DNA of 64,000 bases from Cellulomonas humilata (lineage in GTDB: Bacteria > Actinomycetota > Actinomycetes > Actinomycetales > Cellulomonadaceae): NCBI RefSeq assembly GCF_030814415.1, contig NZ_JAUSVB010000002.1, positions 248,001 through 312,000 on the forward strand, given 5' to 3'. The notes beneath the pieces are model-generated. The model was given only the letters and a program-made list of their open reading frames with translations, was not told the origin of the DNA and made no database searches. Position 1 is the stretch's first letter. Every line of letters starts with the position of its first letter. This document shows positions 2,911 to 27,746 of this stretch, piece by piece. A program made the translations under genes and the position numbers.

Positions 2911-2928
2911 GCCTGGCATCCTCGACGC

Positions 2929-3435
2929 ATGACCGACGACCTCGCCGAGCGGCATGTCTACGGCCGCGCCGACGCCCCGATCACCGTGCTCGAGTTCGGT
3001 GACCTCGAGTGCCCGTACTGCCGCGCGGCGGCGCCTGCCCTGCGCGAGCTGGTCGACACGTCCGGTGGGCGGGTCCGGCTCGTGTGGCGGCACTTCCCGC
3101 TCTTCGAGGTGCACCCGTACGCGCTGTCCGCGGCGCTCGCCGCGGAGGCAGCCGGCGTCGCGGGCAGGTTCTGGGAGATGCACGACGAGCTGATGAGCCA
3201 CCAGGACCGTCTGGCCGAGCCCGACCTGCGCGCGGCCGCCGAGAGGCTCGGGCTCGACCCGTCGACGGTCGCGGGCGACGACGCGCAGGTCCACGCGGCC
3301 GCGGTCTCGGCCGACTACACGGCGGGCATCGAGGCGGGCGTGCGCGGGACACCCACGATCTTCGTGGACGGGACGAGGTTCCACGGGAAGCCCACCCTGG
3401 AGCGGCTGCGCGAGGCTGTGGGGGCGATCGCGTGA
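2929..3435 (+). CDS. DsbA/thioredoxin-fold oxidoreductase, cytosolic
   Basis: A 168-residue DsbA-family protein with redox motif C28-P-Y-C31 near the N-terminus, the helical insertion in the middle, and the cis-proline loop G140-T-P-T. There is no signal peptide or membrane anchor, so it should act in the cytosol, unlike classical DsbA. Family members of this short form are thiol-disulfide exchange or FrnE-like oxidoreductases, and some are isomerases. Its stop overlaps the GTG of the next gene (GTGA at 3432-3435), indicating coupled translation with the short-chain dehydrogenase. Confidence 0.85.
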   Translation: MTDDLAERHVYGRADAPITVLEFGDLECPYCRAAAPALRELVDTSGGRVRLVWRHFPLFEVHPYALSAALAAEAAGVAGRFWEMHDELMSHQDRLAEPDLRAAAERLGLDPSTVAGDDAQVHAAAVSADYTAGIEAGVRGTPTIFVDGTRFHGKPTLERLREAVGAIA

Positions 3436-20776: not shown

Positions 20777-23700
20777 TTGACCACCACCACGCCCGCCCCG
20801 CAGGGGAGCACCACGTCCGTCGAGCAGGTGGCGACGGTGTGCTCCTACTGCGGGGTGGGCTGCGGGATCGTCCTCGACGTCGCGTGCGACGACGAGGGCC
20901 GCCGCGTCGCGCGCGGTGCCCGCGGGGACAAGTCGCACCCCGCGAACGCCGGCCGGCTGTGCACCAAGGGCGCGACGAGCGCGGACATGCTGGCGGCCGG
21001 CGGTCGGGCGACGCACGCGCTCGTGCGAGCGGAGCGCGGTGCCGAGCCCGTGCGAGCGGACCTGGACGAGACGATCGCGCTGGTCGCCCGGCGCCTGCGT
21101 GAGGTGGTCGACACGCACGGGCCCGACGCGTTCGCGCTCTACGTCTCGGGACAGATGAGCCTCGAGGCCCAGTACCTCGCCAACAAGCTCGCCAAGGGCT
21201 ACGTGCGCACGCAGTGGATCGAGTCGAACTCGCGGCTCTGCATGGCCAGCGCGGGGACGGGCTACAAGCTCTCGCTCGGCGCGGACGGGCCGCCCGGGTC
21301 CTACGACGACCTCGACCACGCCGACGTCTTCCTCGTCATCGGCGCGAACATGGCCGACTGCCACCCGATCCTGTTCCTGCGCATGCTCGACCGGGTCAAG
21401 GCGGGCGCCAAGCTGATCGTCGTCGATCCTCGTCGCACGGCCACGGCGGACAAGGCCGACCTGTTCCTCCAGGTGGCACCCGGCACGGACATCGCGCTGC
21501 TCAACGGGCTGCTGCGGCTGATCGTCGAGGCGGGTGGGCTCGACGACGAGTTCGTGGCCGAGCACACCGAGGGGTGGGACGAGCTCGAGGCCATGCTCGA
21601 GGACTACCCGGCAGACGAGGTGGCGCGCATCACCGGTCTCGCCGAGACCGACCTGCGCACGGCGGCGGCCATGCTCGCGGGCGCGGGCAGCTGGGTGTCC
21701 TGCTGGACGATGGGGCTCAACCAGTCGACGCACGGCACCTGGAACACGAACGCCCTGGTCAACCTGCATCTGGCGACGGGCGCGATCTGCCGCACCGGCT
21801 CGGGCCCCTTCTCCCTGACCGGTCAGCCCAACGCGATGGGCGGCCGGGAGATGGGCTACATGGGCCCGGGCCTGCCGGGCCAGCGCACGGTTCTCGACGC
21901 CGACGACCGCGCGTTCGTCGAGGAGGTCTGGGACCTCGCCCCGGGGACGCTGCGTGCCGACTTCACCGGCCGCGGCACCGTCGACATGTTCGAGCGCATG
22001 GCGACGGGCGAGATCAAGGCGTGCTGGGTCGTCTGCACGAACCCGGTCGCCTCGGTGGGGAACCGACGCACCGTCATCGAAGGGCTCGAACGGGCGGAGC
22101 TCGTCGTCACGCAGGACGCGTTCGCGGACACCGAGACCAACGCCTACGCCGACGTGGTGCTCCCGGGTGCGCTCTGGTCGGAGTCCGACGGCGTGATGAT
22201 CAGCTCCGAGCGCAACCTCACGCTCGCTCGCGCGGCCCTGCGCCCGCCGGGCGACGCCCTCCCGGACTGGCTGCTCATCGCGCGGGTCGCCACCGCGATG
22301 GGCTACGACGGGTTCGACTTCGCCTCGTCAGAGGAGGTGTTCGACGAGCTGCGCGCCTTCGCGAACCCCCGCACGGGCTACGACCTGCGCGGGGTGACGT
22401 ACGACCGTCTGCGCTCGGGTTCCGTGCAGTGGCCCGCCGCGCCCGACGGGCCGCGTCGCAACCCTCTGCGCTACCTCAACGACGGCGTGAGCCAGCAGCT
22501 TCTCGAGCGCCCGGACGGTACGCGTCCGCGGCTCGCGTTCCCGACGCCGTCGGGCCGGGCCAGGTTCCTCGCCCGCCCCCACCTGCCCGCCGCCGAGCTC
22601 CCCGACGACGACTTCCCGTTCGTGCTCAACACCGGTCGCGTGCAGCACCAGTGGCACACGATGACGAAGACGGGCAAGGTCGCCAAGCTCAACAAGCTCG
22701 CGCCGGGACCGTTCGTCGAGATGCACCCGTCCGACGCGAGCGCGCTCGGGCTGGTCGACGGCGCGTCCGTCGAGGTCGCGTCCCGTCGCGGTCGGGCCGT
22801 GCTGCCCGTCACGGTGACCGACCGGGTGCTGCCGGGCGCGCTGTTCGCCCCCTTCCACTGGAACGACCTGTTCGGTGAGTACCTGGCCGTGAACGCCGTC
22901 ACCAACGACGCGGTCGACCCGATCTCCTTCCAGCCCGAGCTCAAGGTGTGCGCTGTGGCGCTCACGCCCGTCGCCTCGCAGGTCGAACCCGTCGTGCCCG
23001 ACCTCCGGTCGGTCGATCCCGTCGTGCCCGGCGGCCTCTCGCCGGGTGCGCTCGCGATCCGCGCCCTGGGTGCGACGCTCGGGCTCGACGCGCACCAGCC
23101 GCCTCGCCTCGGCGACCGCGAGCGTCGCTACCTCGCAGGGTTCCTCGCGGGGCTGGGCGGGGGCGAGCCGGGCACCCCCGTGCTGCCGCCGAACGCCCCC
23201 CTCGACGCCGACGACGCGCTCTGGGTCGACGGCCTCCTCGCGGGCCTCTTCTCTCGCACCCCCGAGGCCGACGGGAGCCGCGGTGGTGCGGTTCCCGAGC
23301 GGGCGGCGACGGCGCCGCGCCAGGTGGTGGTGCTGTGGGCGTCCCAGACGGGTGCGGCCGAGGACCTCGCGACGGCCGTGGCGCAGCGGCTGGTGGGTGC
23401 CGGGCTCGCGCCGCGCACCGTCGCGATGGACGACTGTCTCCCGGCCGACCTGCCGACGGGGGCCGACCTCGTCGTCGTGACGAGCACGTTCTCCGACGGC
23501 GACGCGCCGGACAACGGCACCGCGTTCTGGGAGTCGGTGGCCGCGGTCGATGCGCGCCGGCTCGACGGGTCGCGGTTCGCGGTGCTCGCGCTGGGCGACT
23601 CGAGCTACGACCGGTTCTGCGGGCACGGGCGCCGGCTCGACCACCGTCTCGAGGAGCTCGGGGCGGCGCGGCTGGTGGAGCGCGTCGACTGCGAGCCCGG

Positions 23701-24937
23701 GGAGGACCAGCAGGCGCACGCCTGGATCGACGCGGTGGTGTCGGCCCTGACGGGGGATACGCCACCGGCCCCCCTTGCCGAGCCCGCCGTCGCGGCACGC
23801 CCGGACGAGCCTGCCCACGCCACGCGGCAGCACCCCGGCGTCGCGAAGATCATCGGGAACCGCCTGCTGTCCTTGCCCGGCTCGGACAAGGAGGTGCGCG
23901 AGATCCTGCTGGACGTCACCGACAGCCCGCGCGAGGTCTCCTACCGCGCGGGGGACGCGATCGCCGTGCGGCCGTCGAACTCGCCGGAGCTCGTCGCCGA
24001 GTGGCTCGCCGTCACCGGGTGGGACCCGGACCAGGTGGTCGAGGTGGACGGCCGTCCGCACCCGCTGCGCGCCGCGCTCACCACCGAGCTGGACGTCAGC
24101 CGCATCTCGAGCGACCTGCTCAGCCTCGTCGCCGAACGGTCCGGCAGCACCGAGCTGCGCCACCTCCTGCGCCCCGGGAACAGCAGCGACCTCGCGCGCT
24201 GGACGTGGTGCCGGCAGGCGGTCGACGTGGTCGCCGAGCTTGCCCCCGACGTGCCCGCCGCGGACCTCGTCGGGGTGCTGCGCCGTCTCGCGCCGCGGCA
24301 GTACTCGATCTCGTCGAGCTCCCGCGTCACGCCGGACGTGGTCGCGCTGACGATGTCCGTCGTCCGGTACGCGTCGCCGTCGGGCGCGCGCCGGGGCGGT
24401 GTGTGCTCGACGTTCCTCGCGGACGCACCGCTCGGCACGCTCGTGCCCGTGCACGTGCAGCCCACGTCCCACTTCCGCCCACCGGCCCCCGACGTGCCCG
24501 CCATCATGGTGGGCCCGGGGACGGGCGTGGCGCCGTTCGTCGGCTTCCTCGCCGACCGCGCGGCCGCCGGGCACACCGGGCGCAACTGGCTGTTCTTCGG
24601 CGAGCAGCACCAGGCGACCGACTTCTACTACCGCGACGAGCTGTCGCGGCTGCTGTCGGAGGGCACGCTCGACCGCCTCGCCACCGCCTTCTCGCGAGAC
24701 CAGCGGTCGAAGATCTACGTGCAGGACCGGATGCGCGAGCACGGCGCCCGGCTGTGGGAGTGGCTCGAGCAGGGCGCGTCGTTCTTCGTGTGCGGCGACG
24801 CCTCGCGCATGGCGAAGGACGTCGACGCCGCGCTGCGCGAGATCGTCGCGACGCACGGCGGGCTCAGCGCCGCGGCGGCCGACTCGTACGTCAAGGACCT
24901 CGTCACCCGGCGCCGGTACGTGCGCGACGTCTACTGA
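20777..24937 (+). CDS. nasA: assimilatory nitrate reductase fused to NADPH flavodoxin/FAD reductase
   Basis: A 1386-residue fusion. The N-terminal molybdopterin oxidoreductase has a [4Fe-4S] site C22-S-Y-C25-G-V-G-C29 with C62, the Mo-ligand Cys155 in N-S-R-L-C-M, and a dinucleotide-binding C-terminal domain ending near 730. After a linker come a flavodoxin domain (about 848-995; W-A-S-Q-T-G, then L-G-D-S-S-Y) and a cytochrome-P450-reductase-type FAD/NADPH module (about 1019-1386; R-Q-Y-S-I-S-S, then G-P-G-T-G-V-A-P-F). One polypeptide can thus move electrons from NADPH to nitrate. The fusion type is known in Actinobacteria. The start is probably the TTG at 20777, 2 bp after narK, without a ribosome site; GTG 20827 is an alternative. 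Confidence 0.9.
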
Positions 24938-24944
24938 CGCGCGC

Positions 24945-26471
24945 TCAGGTGACGGTCACGCGGACCGTGTCGTAGCCCGTGGCGCCGTCCGGGATGACGC
25001 CCGCGACCGCACCCGTCTGCGGGCCCTGCGGGTCGGACGCGCGGACGAACAGCTGGTACTCGCCGGGCTCGGCGTCCCACGTCCACGACCACTGTCGCCA
25101 CGAGTCGATGCTGCCGTCGTCGGCGAGCGTCGCGTCGTTCCAGGACCCCTGGTCGACGCGCACCTGCACCCCGGTGATGCCGCGGTGCTGCGCCCAGGCG
25201 GTCCCGGCCACGACGACCGACCCGGCGGGGACGGACGTCCCGGGCCTCGGCACCTCGATGCGCGACTGCGTCTTGATCGGCCCTTCCGCCGACCAGCCGC
25301 GCTCGGTCCAGTACGCCGTGTCGTCGGCGAACCGGGTGACGCGCAGCTCGGTGACCCACTTCGTCGCGGACACGTACCCGTACAGCCCCGGCACCACCAT
25401 GCGCACCGGGAAACCGTGCTCGACGGGCAGCGGCTCGCCGTCCATCGCGATGGCCAGCAGCGCGTCGCGCCCGTCGGTCAGGGCAGCGAGCGGGGTCGAC
25501 GCCGTGAACCCGTCGACGCTGCGGGAGAGGACCATGTCGGCGTCGCCGGTCGGCCGGGCCCGGGCCAGCAGGTCCGCGATGGGCATGCCCAGCCACTTCT
25601 GGTTACCGATGAGGTCGCCGCCGACCGGGTTGGACACGCACGCGAGCGTCACCCAGGCCTCCACGAGGTCGCCCTCCAGCAGCTCGTCCCAGGTGAGCGT
25701 GACCTCCTCCTCGACCATGCCGTGCACCCGCAGGCTCCAGGTGCTCGGGTCGACCTGCGGGACCACGAGGGCGGTGTCGATCCGGTAGAACTCGTCCGGC
25801 GGCGTCTGCCAGGGCCCGACGCCGTCGACGCCGACGTCGACGCCCGCGGGCACGGGCGCCGCCGTCGTGGTGGGGGACGGGATCCGGACAGCTGCCCGCG
25901 CCGACTGCGCCCCGCGGGCACCGGCGCCGATGGCCCGGCCGAGCACCACCCCGACCACGCCGAGGGCTCCCGCCGCGGCCGTGGCCTGCAGGAACGCGCG
26001 CCGCTGGACACCCTCGGGACGGGGGCGCCCCGGTGCTCCGGGCAGGCGACGGACCAGCTCCCGCAGGGTCAGCAGACCAGCGATCGCGCCGACCACCGCG
26101 GGCGCCCCGGCGAGGGTCCCCGCATCCGGTCGGCCCATCGCCGCCAGAGCGGCGACGGCACCCAGCACCACCACGAGCGTGGCGCCCCACGCCCAGCGCC
26201 GGGCTGCGAGCACCCCGGCCAGCGCGGCGAGCGCGAGGATGACCAGCACCTCGCCGATCCCGAGGACGACCTTGTCCGCCGTGCCGAACGTCGAGGCGGC
26301 GAAGTCCTTGAGCCAGGCCGGGGTCGCGTCGACGAACGCGGACCCGACGGCCACCAGCGGGTCGGTGCTCGGCCCGGTGATCAGCGCGACGAGGGACCCG
26401 ACGCCGAGCGTCACGACACCCGCGGCGAGTCCCGCGAGCGCGGCGAGCCCGGTGTCCCGGCGTGTTGCCAT
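24945..26471 (-). CDS. membrane-anchored sulfite-oxidase-family molybdopterin protein
   Basis: A 508-residue protein. Four hydrophobic segments occupy residues 8 to about 135. An internal twin-arginine-like R157-R-A-F-L-Q precedes another hydrophobic stretch. A sulfite oxidase/YedY molybdopterin domain follows (about 225-400) with the presumed Mo-ligand Cys278 in L-A-C-V-S-N-P-V-G-G, and a C-terminal dimerisation (Mo-co) immunoglobulin-like domain ends the protein. The catalytic part is probably outside the membrane. The electron acceptor and substrate are unknown; sulfite or a protein sulfoxide are family possibilities. It converges on the nitrate reductase with only 7 bp between stops, and shares the need for molybdate. 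Confidence 0.85.
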   Translation of the reverse strand: MATRRDTGLAALAGLAAGVVTLGVGSLVALITGPSTDPLVAVGSAFVDATPAWLKDFAASTFGTADKVVLGIGEVLVILALAALAGVLAARRWAWGATLVVVLGAVAALAAMGRPDAGTLAGAPAVVGAIAGLLTLRELVRRLPGAPGRPRPEGVQRRAFLQATAAAGALGVVGVVLGRAIGAGARGAQSARAAVRIPSPTTTAAPVPAGVDVGVDGVGPWQTPPDEFYRIDTALVVPQVDPSTWSLRVHGMVEEEVTLTWDELLEGDLVEAWVTLACVSNPVGGDLIGNQKWLGMPIADLLARARPTGDADMVLSRSVDGFTASTPLAALTDGRDALLAIAMDGEPLPVEHGFPVRMVVPGLYGYVSATKWVTELRVTRFADDTAYWTERGWSAEGPIKTQSRIEVPRPGTSVPAGSVVVAGTAWAQHRGITGVQVRVDQGSWNDATLADDGSIDSWRQWSWTWDAEPGEYQLFVRASDPQGPQTGAVAGVIPDGATGYDTVRVTVT

Positions 26472-26576
26472 CTGCTGCGTGCCCTCCTCGATGAGCGGTC
26501 AGCCCCGACTCTGCCCTGACGGACGGCGGATGTCGTCACCCACCCTGCGCGCCGACCCTGTGTATCTGACACCACA

Positions 26577-26762
26577 ACGTCCGAGCATCCGGCCGCGATA
26601 CCGCGCACTTCCTCGGACGTCACCATGGTGGATGCAGGACGTCCGCACATTCGGTCGCCAGGACGCTCGAACGTGCGGACGTTGCAGCCATGCCTACGGG
26701 ACGTCCGCGCATCCTGTCGTCCGGACGCTCGAACGTGCGGACGCTGCGGGGGTCAGAGTGCG
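26577..26762. repeat. array of three palindromic repeats with an exact 62-bp period
   Basis: Three units start at 26577, 26639 and 26701. Each opens with ACGTCCGnnCATnCnGnCG and contains a 44-bp element with inverted ends: ACGTCCGAG/CTCGGACGT at 26577-26620, ACGTCCGCAC/GTGCGGACGT at 26639-26682, and nearly the same at 26701-26744. An 18-bp spacer follows each. Units 2 and 3 share an identical 21-bp stretch starting at 26661 and 26723 (GGACGCTCGAACGTGCGGAC plus G). The array fills most of the 281-bp gap between the sulfite-oxidase-family gene and the HIT gene, and the last unit runs over the HIT stop codon. It could be a dispersed intergenic palindrome family, a terminator set or a protein-binding array. 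Confidence 0.9.
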
Positions 26763-27199
26763 GGGCTGCCCAGCGTCGCCGGGACGTGGGCGGCGTGGCC
26801 CTGGTCGCGCAGGGCGGCCCGGACCCGTTCGGCCGCCGCGTCCAGCTCGGCCGCGGGGACGTCGGAGCGGGCGTTGCGGAACGACAGGCTCGCCTCGTCC
26901 CACGCGGGCAGGACGTGCAGGTGCAGGTGCGCGACCTCGAACCCGGCGACGAGGAGTGCGGCGCGCGGCGCGGACCAGGCCTGCTGCTGCGCCTGCCCGA
27001 TCGTCTTGGCGACGAGCACCAGGTGCGCCAGCACGTCATCGGGCGCCTCGGTGAGCTGCGCGATCTCGGCGCGGGGGACCACGAGCATGTGACCCTCGGT
27101 GATGGGGGCGATGGTGCCGAACGCCACGGCGACGTCGTCGGCCCACACGAACCGGCCCGGGATGTCCCCGGCGATGATCTTGGTGAACAGGGTGCTCAT
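26753..27199 (-). CDS. HIT-family nucleotide hydrolase/transferase
   Basis: A 148-residue histidine-triad protein. The active site is H91-L-H93-L-H95-V-L in the C-terminal half, preceded by G-H-M-L-V-V-P-R, the family's first conserved block. HIT proteins of this Fhit/HINT-like type hydrolyse adenylated compounds. Its stop (26753-26755) lies in the third palindromic repeat, and the DUF1697 gene ends 13 bp upstream of its start on the same strand, so the two are likely co-transcribed. Confidence 0.9.
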   Translation of the reverse strand: MSTLFTKIIAGDIPGRFVWADDVAVAFGTIAPITEGHMLVVPRAEIAQLTEAPDDVLAHLVLVAKTIGQAQQQAWSAPRAALLVAGFEVAHLHLHVLPAWDEASLSFRNARSDVPAAELDAAAERVRAALRDQGHAAHVPATLGSPAL

Positions 27200-27212
27200 G
27201 ACGCCACGCTAG

Positions 27213-27746
27213 TCAGGCGCGCTCACGGGCGAGCCGCTGCAGCGCGAGCACGGTGTTCCAGTTGCGCGCGGTCCCGGACCGGCCGGTCGCCTTCTCCAGC
27301 ACGGGGAGGGTGAGCTTGGAGCGGCCGATGCCGTCGGGGAAGTACGCGTAGGTCTCGTGGCCGGCGAACGCGACGCTCTCGCGACCGTACGGCGTCGGGT
27401 CGAGGTCGGTGCGCGCGGGGGCGCCGTCCCAGCAGTACAGGACCACGTGCGAGGGGTCCGAGGACGCCTCCTCGGGGTACGGGAGCCGCTCCACGATGGC
27501 GTCCCACTGCTCCAGCGTCCGGGTCACGACGGGGACGTCGAACCCGAGCTCGGCGACGAGGGCCTCGGCCAGTCCGGGGCCCACGGCGGAGGCGGCTCCG
27601 GCGGGCACGAGCACGATGTTCCCGCTGTTCACGTAGGTGGTGACCCGGGTGTGGCCGAGGCTCTCGGCGACCTCGCGCAGCTGGGCCGACTTCACGGTGC
27701 GACCGCCGACGTTGACGGCGCGCAGGAGGGCGATCACGGGGCTCAT
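27213..27746 (-). CDS. DUF1697 family protein
   Basis: A 177-residue protein matching DUF1697 throughout: L-L-R-A-V-N-V-G-G-R near the start, T-Y-V-N-S-G-N-I-V, and a C-terminal R-S-K-L-T-L-P, then R-N-W-N-T-V. The family is widespread, small and cytosolic, with no established function. It is transcribed leftward with the HIT gene and diverges from nirB across 134 bp. Confidence 0.88.
   Translation of the reverse strand: MSPVIALLRAVNVGGRTVKSAQLREVAESLGHTRVTTYVNSGNIVLVPAGAASAVGPGLAEALVAELGFDVPVVTRTLEQWDAIVERLPYPEEASSDPSHVVLYCWDGAPARTDLDPTPYGRESVAFAGHETYAYFPDGIGRSKLTLPVLEKATGRSGTARNWNTVLALQRLARERA

Follow-up and report, generated by a model that had tools for sequence, protein, structure and literature searches.

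A dispersed family of REP-like 44-bp palindromes in Cellulomonas

What are the three palindromic units that stand at an exact 62-bp period in an intergenic gap of Cellulomonas humilata? They were noticed in a first-pass annotation of a 64,000-nt stretch of contig NZ_JAUSVB010000002.1 (the window; its genome is called the home genome below), which described 44-bp elements with inverted ACGTCCG...CGGACGT ends at 26577-26762. Length and exact spacing were confirmed (Table 1), with the corrections that the array spans 26577-26744 and that the right arm of unit 3 differs by one change. The GAG/CTC arms of unit 1, the CAC/GTG arms of unit 2 and the 21-bp block identical in units 2 and 3 were as described. 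The gap lies between two minus-strand genes next to what we take to be nitrate-assimilation-type genes. The adjoining gene that we assume to be of the HIT family has matches in 58 of 60 genomes of the genus. Elsewhere in the window, a single long frame (20777-24937) seems by eye to fuse nitrate-reductase-like and flavoprotein reductase-like parts.

Table 1. Array elements, spacers and flanking genes in window positions; classes are our own labels, defined in the text, and gene families are presumed.
Feature	Position	Strand	Description	Model score (bits)
Element 1	26577..26620	.	44-bp dyad with mosaic inner stem; arms of class B, ACGTCCGAG...CTCGGACGT	43.9
Spacer, elements 1/2	26621..26638	.	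18 nt; differs from the other spacer	
Element 2	26639..26682	.	44-bp dyad, class A, ACGTCCGCACATTCG...CGAACGTGCGGACGT	62.5
Spacer, elements 2/3	26683..26700	.	18 nt	
Element 3	26701..26744	.	44-bp dyad, class A, right arm CGGACGC, 21-bp block in common with element 2	39.6
HIT-family gene (presumed)	26753..27199	-	upstream gene in the sense of transcription; stop codon 8 nt from the array	
Molybdopterin oxidoreductase-type gene (presumed)	24945..26471	-	next gene downstream; start 105 nt from the array	

Within the window, an arm-N30-arm pattern with at most one mismatch gave nine matches compared to 0.92 expected from shuffles (0 of 100 shuffles reached nine), six of the nine being the three units counted on both strands. 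The ACGTCCG arm alone occurred 43 times in the window, no enrichment over the 39.8 expected, and a poorly chosen whole-unit pattern with two mismatches did not exceed chance (4 against 6.8). Units 1, 2 and 3 form 14, 17 and 15 of 22 possible Watson-Crick pairs, and the minus strand of the array (201 nt) folds at -114 kcal/mol (z = -6.4), with z = -3.3, -3.8 and -1.8 for units 1 to 3 folded one by one. The suggestion of a terminator found no support in its classical form, as a scan of the window array (26400-27300) gave no U-tract terminator. Rfam searches in five sources (the window and 28 stretches) returned, at gathering score, a tRNA match only, and a known RNA family was rejected for the array.

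The search for further copies that the first-pass annotation had proposed found tens of them dispersed in the home genome, and its suggestion of a dispersed repeat family was correct. The arm pattern with N24-32 occurred at 51 places compared to 2 in a reversed control, a count that allows lengths of 38-46 bp and in which a few places of other lengths are probably chance; copies were also found in further genomes. A covariance model of the elements aligned below gave 122 matches in the home genome at E <=0.001 with both strands counted. In 28 stretches and the window it gave 80 places at E <=0.05, grouped into 41 clusters, and 75 of the 80 also passed E <=0.001. These stretches had been chosen for element content; an 800-kb stretch of Cellulomonas sp. 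Root485 was taken regardless of elements. In an alignment of 47 elements (45 from the home genome and 2 from G002), all 13 pairs of the 20-bp dyad that were free to vary changed on both sides, and the covariation score was 0.305 compared to 0.142 for shuffled elements and at most 0.106 with slid partners, which bears out the conserved hairpin or dyad read from the array. Columns 1-7 and 38-44 were invariant because the search pattern demanded them, and the central columns 19, 26 and 30 were at least 90% constant. The dyad of the family is conserved, and the inner stems vary yet stay largely complementary.

A distance of 44 bp separated exact arms in 46 of 53 instances from the home-genome stretches and in 17 of 27 in the Root485 800 kb, where every other length occurred at most once. 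Flanks in Cellulomonas carry an outward [TC]GCGG bias on both sides, without clear covariation, and pairing at flank positions 1-10 of 56 single Cellulomonas elements was close to that of shuffled flanks. A covarying stem longer than 44 bp was rejected there, so that in Cellulomonas the unit that covaries is the 44-mer. Among 27 elements from other genera (Geodermatophilaceae, Sporichthya, Dermatophilaceae, Knoellia, Kribbella), 15, 14 and 12 pairs were formed at flank positions 1-3 compared to 9.8, 9.1 and 9.1 after shuffling, and the stem may run on past 44 bp in these genera.

Elements were sorted by the bases that follow the arm, under our own labels: class A has C (other than a class C start), class B has AG or AA, and class C has CACT, CGCT or CAGT. 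Both halves belonged to the same class in 197 of 211 pooled elements, a total in which some Root485 elements are counted twice; pair spacings were de-duplicated by sequence. Besides single elements there are arrays, in which neighbours lay 61-65 bp apart in 63 of the 79 pairs closer than 130 bp, and 51 of these 63 were of one class. The period of about six helical turns, proposed to place the units on one face of the DNA, is therefore common to the family; phasing is not required, since single copies and 40-bp overlapping pairs exist. The latter overlap in ACGT and differed in class in 11 of 11 cases, where a same-class share of 0.36 was expected (chance of none in 11 about 0.008, with related elements treated as independent). 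Two units of one class placed 40 bp apart would form a single long spacerless palindrome, which is likely to be unstable, which would explain why abutting units that share ACGT differ in class. Some C. xylanilytica arrays have near-identical spacers, indicating recent tandem duplication of the 62-bp unit. In a Nocardioides MAG, related 44-mers follow a period of 52 rather than 62 bp (L157:3240-3593, successive starts 52, 50, 104, 52 and 52 bp apart; L173:7634-7729, start spacing 52). At L301, in a genome without model match (G030), a 392-bp gap after an ordinary terminator-like hairpin is by eye rich in CGTCCGC[AG]CTCG and GAGCGCGGACG half-sites; given their other arrangement, this is perhaps a distinct family of repeats that makes use of the same half-site.

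Presence across the genus is patchy. At E <=0.001, 15 of 60 genomes matched and 45 were without match; 11, the home genome included, were rich carriers with at least 14 matches (both strands), and 4 had 1 to 6. Rich carriers include the closest genomes by HIT protein (G057, G060, G035, G027, G065, G029 and G061, 86-91% identity) as well as G045 and G002 (82%); G056 and G025 (82-83%) have no match and G005 (82%) has 6. By coordinates, G079 is the same genome as G045, and G081 the same as G035. A phylum sample of 296 genomes, screened with strict filters so that few candidates were scored, held 4 genomes with any match, including the home genome. Among the matches listed in a pattern scan, arm-exact 44-mers occurred in Cellulomonas terrae, C. 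xylanilytica, C. humilata and further strains, and in Nocardioides, Kribbella, Geodermatophilaceae, Sporichthya, Dermatophilaceae and Knoellia; these matches include likely chance ones (e.g. Prevotellaceae, Euryarchaeota). Seventeen genomes with such 44-mers were scored whole, and 16 of them matched the model. Counts over both strands were, for example, 35 for a Geodermatophilaceae MAG, 28 for a Sporichthya MAG, 24 for Nocardioides sp. B-3 and 22 for Kribbella monticola; the Dermatophilaceae MAG had no match under this model. Multi-copy relatives are present in some Nocardioides, Kribbella, Geodermatophilaceae and Sporichthya. Downstream of the HIT gene, nothing family-like was seen in non-carriers among 30 loci, an incomplete view in which many loci appeared on the wrong strand.

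We then related the elements to genes called by our own small gene caller. In the Root485 800 kb, 34 model matches at E <=0.05 formed 20 clusters, of which two weak in-gene clusters (E 0.015 and 0.049) look like chance and were left out, leaving 18 arrays: 9 convergent, 7 co-directional and 2 divergent. Gaps of at least 44 bp carried an array in 9 of 54 convergent, 7 of 206 co-directional and 2 of 107 divergent cases (0.60, 0.11 and 0.09 arrays per kb). With related elements treated as independent, convergent gaps were enriched over the rest (p = 0.0003) and the depletion of divergent gaps was not significant (p = 0.11). All 16 non-divergent arrays had a stop codon within 32 nt, and the upstream stop was the nearer one in 7 of 7 co-directional arrays. 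The 41 clusters of the home genome comprised 23 co-directional, 16 convergent and 1 divergent, and 1 in a predicted gene. The upstream stop was nearer in 19 of the 23 co-directional clusters (hand count); three of the four exceptions seem by eye to have a further hairpin or a decayed element in between. Also by eye, an ordinary GC-rich hairpin precedes the elements at L056, L062:19582, L067 and L080:18835, and both element orientations were seen. In other genera, where genes were called with the Cellulomonas-trained caller, predicted genes contained 7 of 32 Nocardioides elements, and 2 of 6 Kribbella and 2 of 6 Dermatophilaceae/Knoellia elements lay between divergent genes. An element-like match at L063:16991-17030 lies within a predicted 3-kb gene, with no clear element at the Root485 ortholog. 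The element at L078:4342-4385 stands just ahead of what we take to be a dnaJ-like gene in an apparent dnaK-type operon, indicating that some elements are intercistronic.

Gain, loss and class replacement occur at the same sites. Of 20 home-genome array sites on contig 1, 7 were without a complete Root485 ortholog and the in-gene L063:16991 was left out; among the remaining 12, judged by eye, 4 were class-replaced (L059, L063 twice, L066:6132), 1 was empty (L067) and 7 retained at least one unit of their class, mostly with a changed number, between flanking genes that are mostly 87-98% identical. At L063:5943-6893 the array-flanked gene, presumably encoding a DUF559-type protein, is about 72% identical to its Root485 counterpart compared to 88-96% for the outer flanks, and both L063 arrays may for this reason have been replaced along with the gene. 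Of the 18 Root485 arrays, 8 were checked in the opposite direction: four (336809, 346484, 367809, 418343) face a home-genome gap that contains no full unit, one (518651) faces a hairpin shortened to 30 bp, and three have a home-genome unit or gave no clear reading. At L269 (about 2920-3007), G000 has a 30-bp hairpin in place of the complete 44-bp unit of class C in Root485, which looks like an internal deletion retaining both arms. Where Root485 carries one class B element, a long direct repeat (aaggtcagcgcgaccacaagaacaggcgctgaggtgagg...) is present twice in G000 (L265:12380-12635) and may belong to another repeat family.

A single convergent gap was traced through 16 genome handles, of which two denote one genome. 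Its units were A-A in Root485, A and a decayed A in Leaf395, C-C in C. terrae, A in Leaf334, C in C. xylanilytica and B in G057. The carriers G000, Root930 and G035, whose genes abut directly, and URHD0024 (G045/G079), with a short gap, have no unit there, indicating that a unit is not needed between these genes; G056, G025, G005 and G030 likewise had none, and G002 gave one flank only. In a second gap (one flank only in 7 of 16 loci), G000 and Leaf334 alone had arrays, which follow an ordinary terminator-like hairpin rich in GC; Root485, C. xylanilytica, Leaf395, Root930, G035 and G057 keep this hairpin but have no full unit.

The covariation was further resolved in 54 same-class orthologous comparisons, in which, for two species, one locus is entered twice (L047/L105, L052/L193). 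One-sided changes affected 19% of paired and 45% of unpaired positions. They led from mismatch to Watson-Crick pair in 54 cases and from Watson-Crick pair to mismatch in 70, the latter forming, with 24 changes to G-U, 94 departures from Watson-Crick pairing. At unpaired positions, 64 of 96 one-sided changes restored a Watson-Crick pair, where one third would be expected if change were blind and more if transitions were favoured. Only 8 pairs had changed on both sides with Watson-Crick pairing kept. The claim that compensatory change in the arms reflects selection is thus weaker than it appears: the covariation lies mostly between subclasses, and one-sided changes dominate within a class. Some force seems to keep overall complementarity while single pairs break often, be it selection or hairpin-templated repair. 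On the sense strand, G-U outnumbered A-C in co-directional elements (103 vs 76, p = 0.052 with related elements treated as independent) and equalled it in convergent ones (64 vs 64), and Watson-Crick pairing was 72% in convergent compared to 65% in co-directional elements, weak hints of a constraint at the RNA level.

The Y1_Tnp domain of RAYT transposases (PF01797) was found in 0 of the 11 rich Cellulomonas carriers and in 0 of 17 genomes of a second set (two repeating the first set and one without model match), with a positive E. coli control; the 1 genus genome in 60 that has the domain is itself without elements. Membership among RAYT-driven REPs was rejected, no Y1_Tnp having appeared in either set of genomes. 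An element-borne gene was likewise rejected, as the 15 predicted proteins beside arrays were by eye mostly of housekeeping types with no transposase among them.

Taken on sequence evidence, the array is probably three copies of a REP-like palindrome family, most likely acting as transcribed 3'-end hairpins, that would spread without a recognisable Y1/RAYT transposase. The units would be transcribed as the terminal part of the upstream mRNA, or of both mRNAs where genes converge, and may there fold into hairpins that aid transcription ending or 3'-end protection. Local multiplication could proceed by tandem duplication of the 62-bp unit, and dispersal or replacement by a recombination or transposition process lacking a recognisable Y1/RAYT enzyme. 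We favour the REP-like reading because of copy number, covariation, 3'-end position, turnover and the C. xylanilytica duplications. It is weakened by the non-significant divergent depletion, by a density in co-directional gaps that barely exceeds that in divergent ones, by the weak G-U excess and the frequent loss of stem pairs, and also by the dispensability of units at one gap, the ordinary hairpins already in place and the elements in divergent or in-gene positions. A more specific version, tentative and rather unlikely as it stands, is an undescribed actinobacterial class of mobile hairpins: a unit of 44 bp with ACGT at its ends would target the few bases that follow stop codons, be overwritten there by units of different stem class and depend for its movement on an enzyme other than Y1/RAYT, with abutting units differing in class to avoid a long palindrome.

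The strongest competitor, which we consider unlikely though a serious contender, holds that these are selfish or neutral mobile palindromes without a host role, which insert or survive at 3' ends since nothing is disrupted there, with the spreading enzyme or palindrome-correcting repair maintaining their complementarity. The patchy distribution in the genus, the gain, loss and class replacement between species, the dispensability at orthologous sites and the occurrence of both orientations all accord with it. However, co-directional arrays sit close by the upstream stop instead of being scattered through the promoter-free portion of the gap, and neither the Y1 search nor the proteins beside the arrays revealed a mobilising gene. 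Double-stranded sites for a dimeric protein, a nucleoid factor or gyrase, with the 62-63 bp spacing presenting them on one helical face, would make sense of the constant outer arms and central columns, of the non-covarying flank bias on both sides in Cellulomonas and of the 61-65-bp period; we regard such sites as improbable because stem covariation would not be expected of a simple operator, elements also occur singly or in 40-bp overlapping pairs, and positions are mostly at 3' ends and not at promoters. Still less probable are ordinary intrinsic terminators alike by descent. Their place right after stops, in arrays of two or three hairpins, would suit this reading, and hairpin clusters are reported to terminate without an A/U pattern (PMC8355165), but the length is fixed at 44 bp with constant arms across unrelated loci, just 9 of the 54 Root485 convergent gaps carry an array, the window array has no U-tract and ordinary hairpins stand beside some elements. 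A local duplication without function, for which the tandem duplication in some C. xylanilytica arrays might speak, is ruled out for practical purposes by the tens of dispersed copies and by copies in ten other genomes of the genus.

The REP-like family offers a clean comparative system in which one site in related species holds no, one or two units or another class, with no Y1 found. This variable content at shared sites makes both a 3'-end role and the spreading machinery testable.

How does the family compare with known systems? No description of it appeared among the papers listed by searches of the open PMC literature or in a term search of PMC6006769, with subscription papers outside the scope. 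Like REPs in the broad sense, it is a short palindrome in many dispersed copies, extragenic and at 3' ends (16 of 18 Root485 arrays, with divergent depletion at p = 0.11); at 44 bp it is slightly longer than the published 20-40 bp. With GTAG REPs, BIMEs and REPINs, as characterized in PMC2817692 and PMC3116915, it shares extragenic dispersal, paired and tandem units, retained complementary changes, fast turnover and strain-specific abundance. Unlike GTAG REPs, it shows no GT(A/G)G head in the flank base table for Cellulomonas, which gives no GTAG or GTGG consensus, and the cognate RAYT of GTAG REPs and REPINs is absent from the carriers searched.

The resemblance to CGTC REPs, as the main text of Di Nocera et al. 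(2013) presents them (PMC3733652), is closer in habit. These too are short GC-rich palindromes in many copies at convergent and co-directional 3' ends, with dimers and clusters, and most convergent ones lie <20 bp from both ORF ends; many of their families prefer heterodimers, as do the abutting pairs here, and the reason offered resembles the instability argued above. They are described without a dedicated transposase; for the present family the search covered Y1_Tnp, which was not found in the carriers searched. The arm of the 44-bp unit contains CGTC, but it is paired with GACG in both arms (columns required by the search pattern), whereas CGTC REPs have an unpaired CGTC tag at one end. They have a stem of 8-9 bp whose first two positions are AT pairs, a loop of 4-5 nt and a CCA tail (PMC3733652); the present unit has a dyad of about 20 bp within 44 bp and no CCA flank consensus. 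In that survey tagged families come mainly from Proteobacteria and other phyla and not from Actinobacteria, the word "Actinobacteria" has 0 occurrences in the main text, untagged REP-like sequences are mentioned in M. tuberculosis, an actinobacterium, and the spread of REPs without RAYTs is left open.

Canonical intrinsic terminators combine a hairpin with a U-tract, which the window array lacks. Hairpin-cluster terminators come nearer, being groups of hairpins near stop codons that, according to PMC8355165, terminate without an essential A/U pattern; they are defined by structure, whereas the present units share sequence and length and occupy a minority of gene ends. The family belongs with REPs in the broad sense, set apart from the GTAG group by head and transposase and from the CGTC group by tag, stem and tail.
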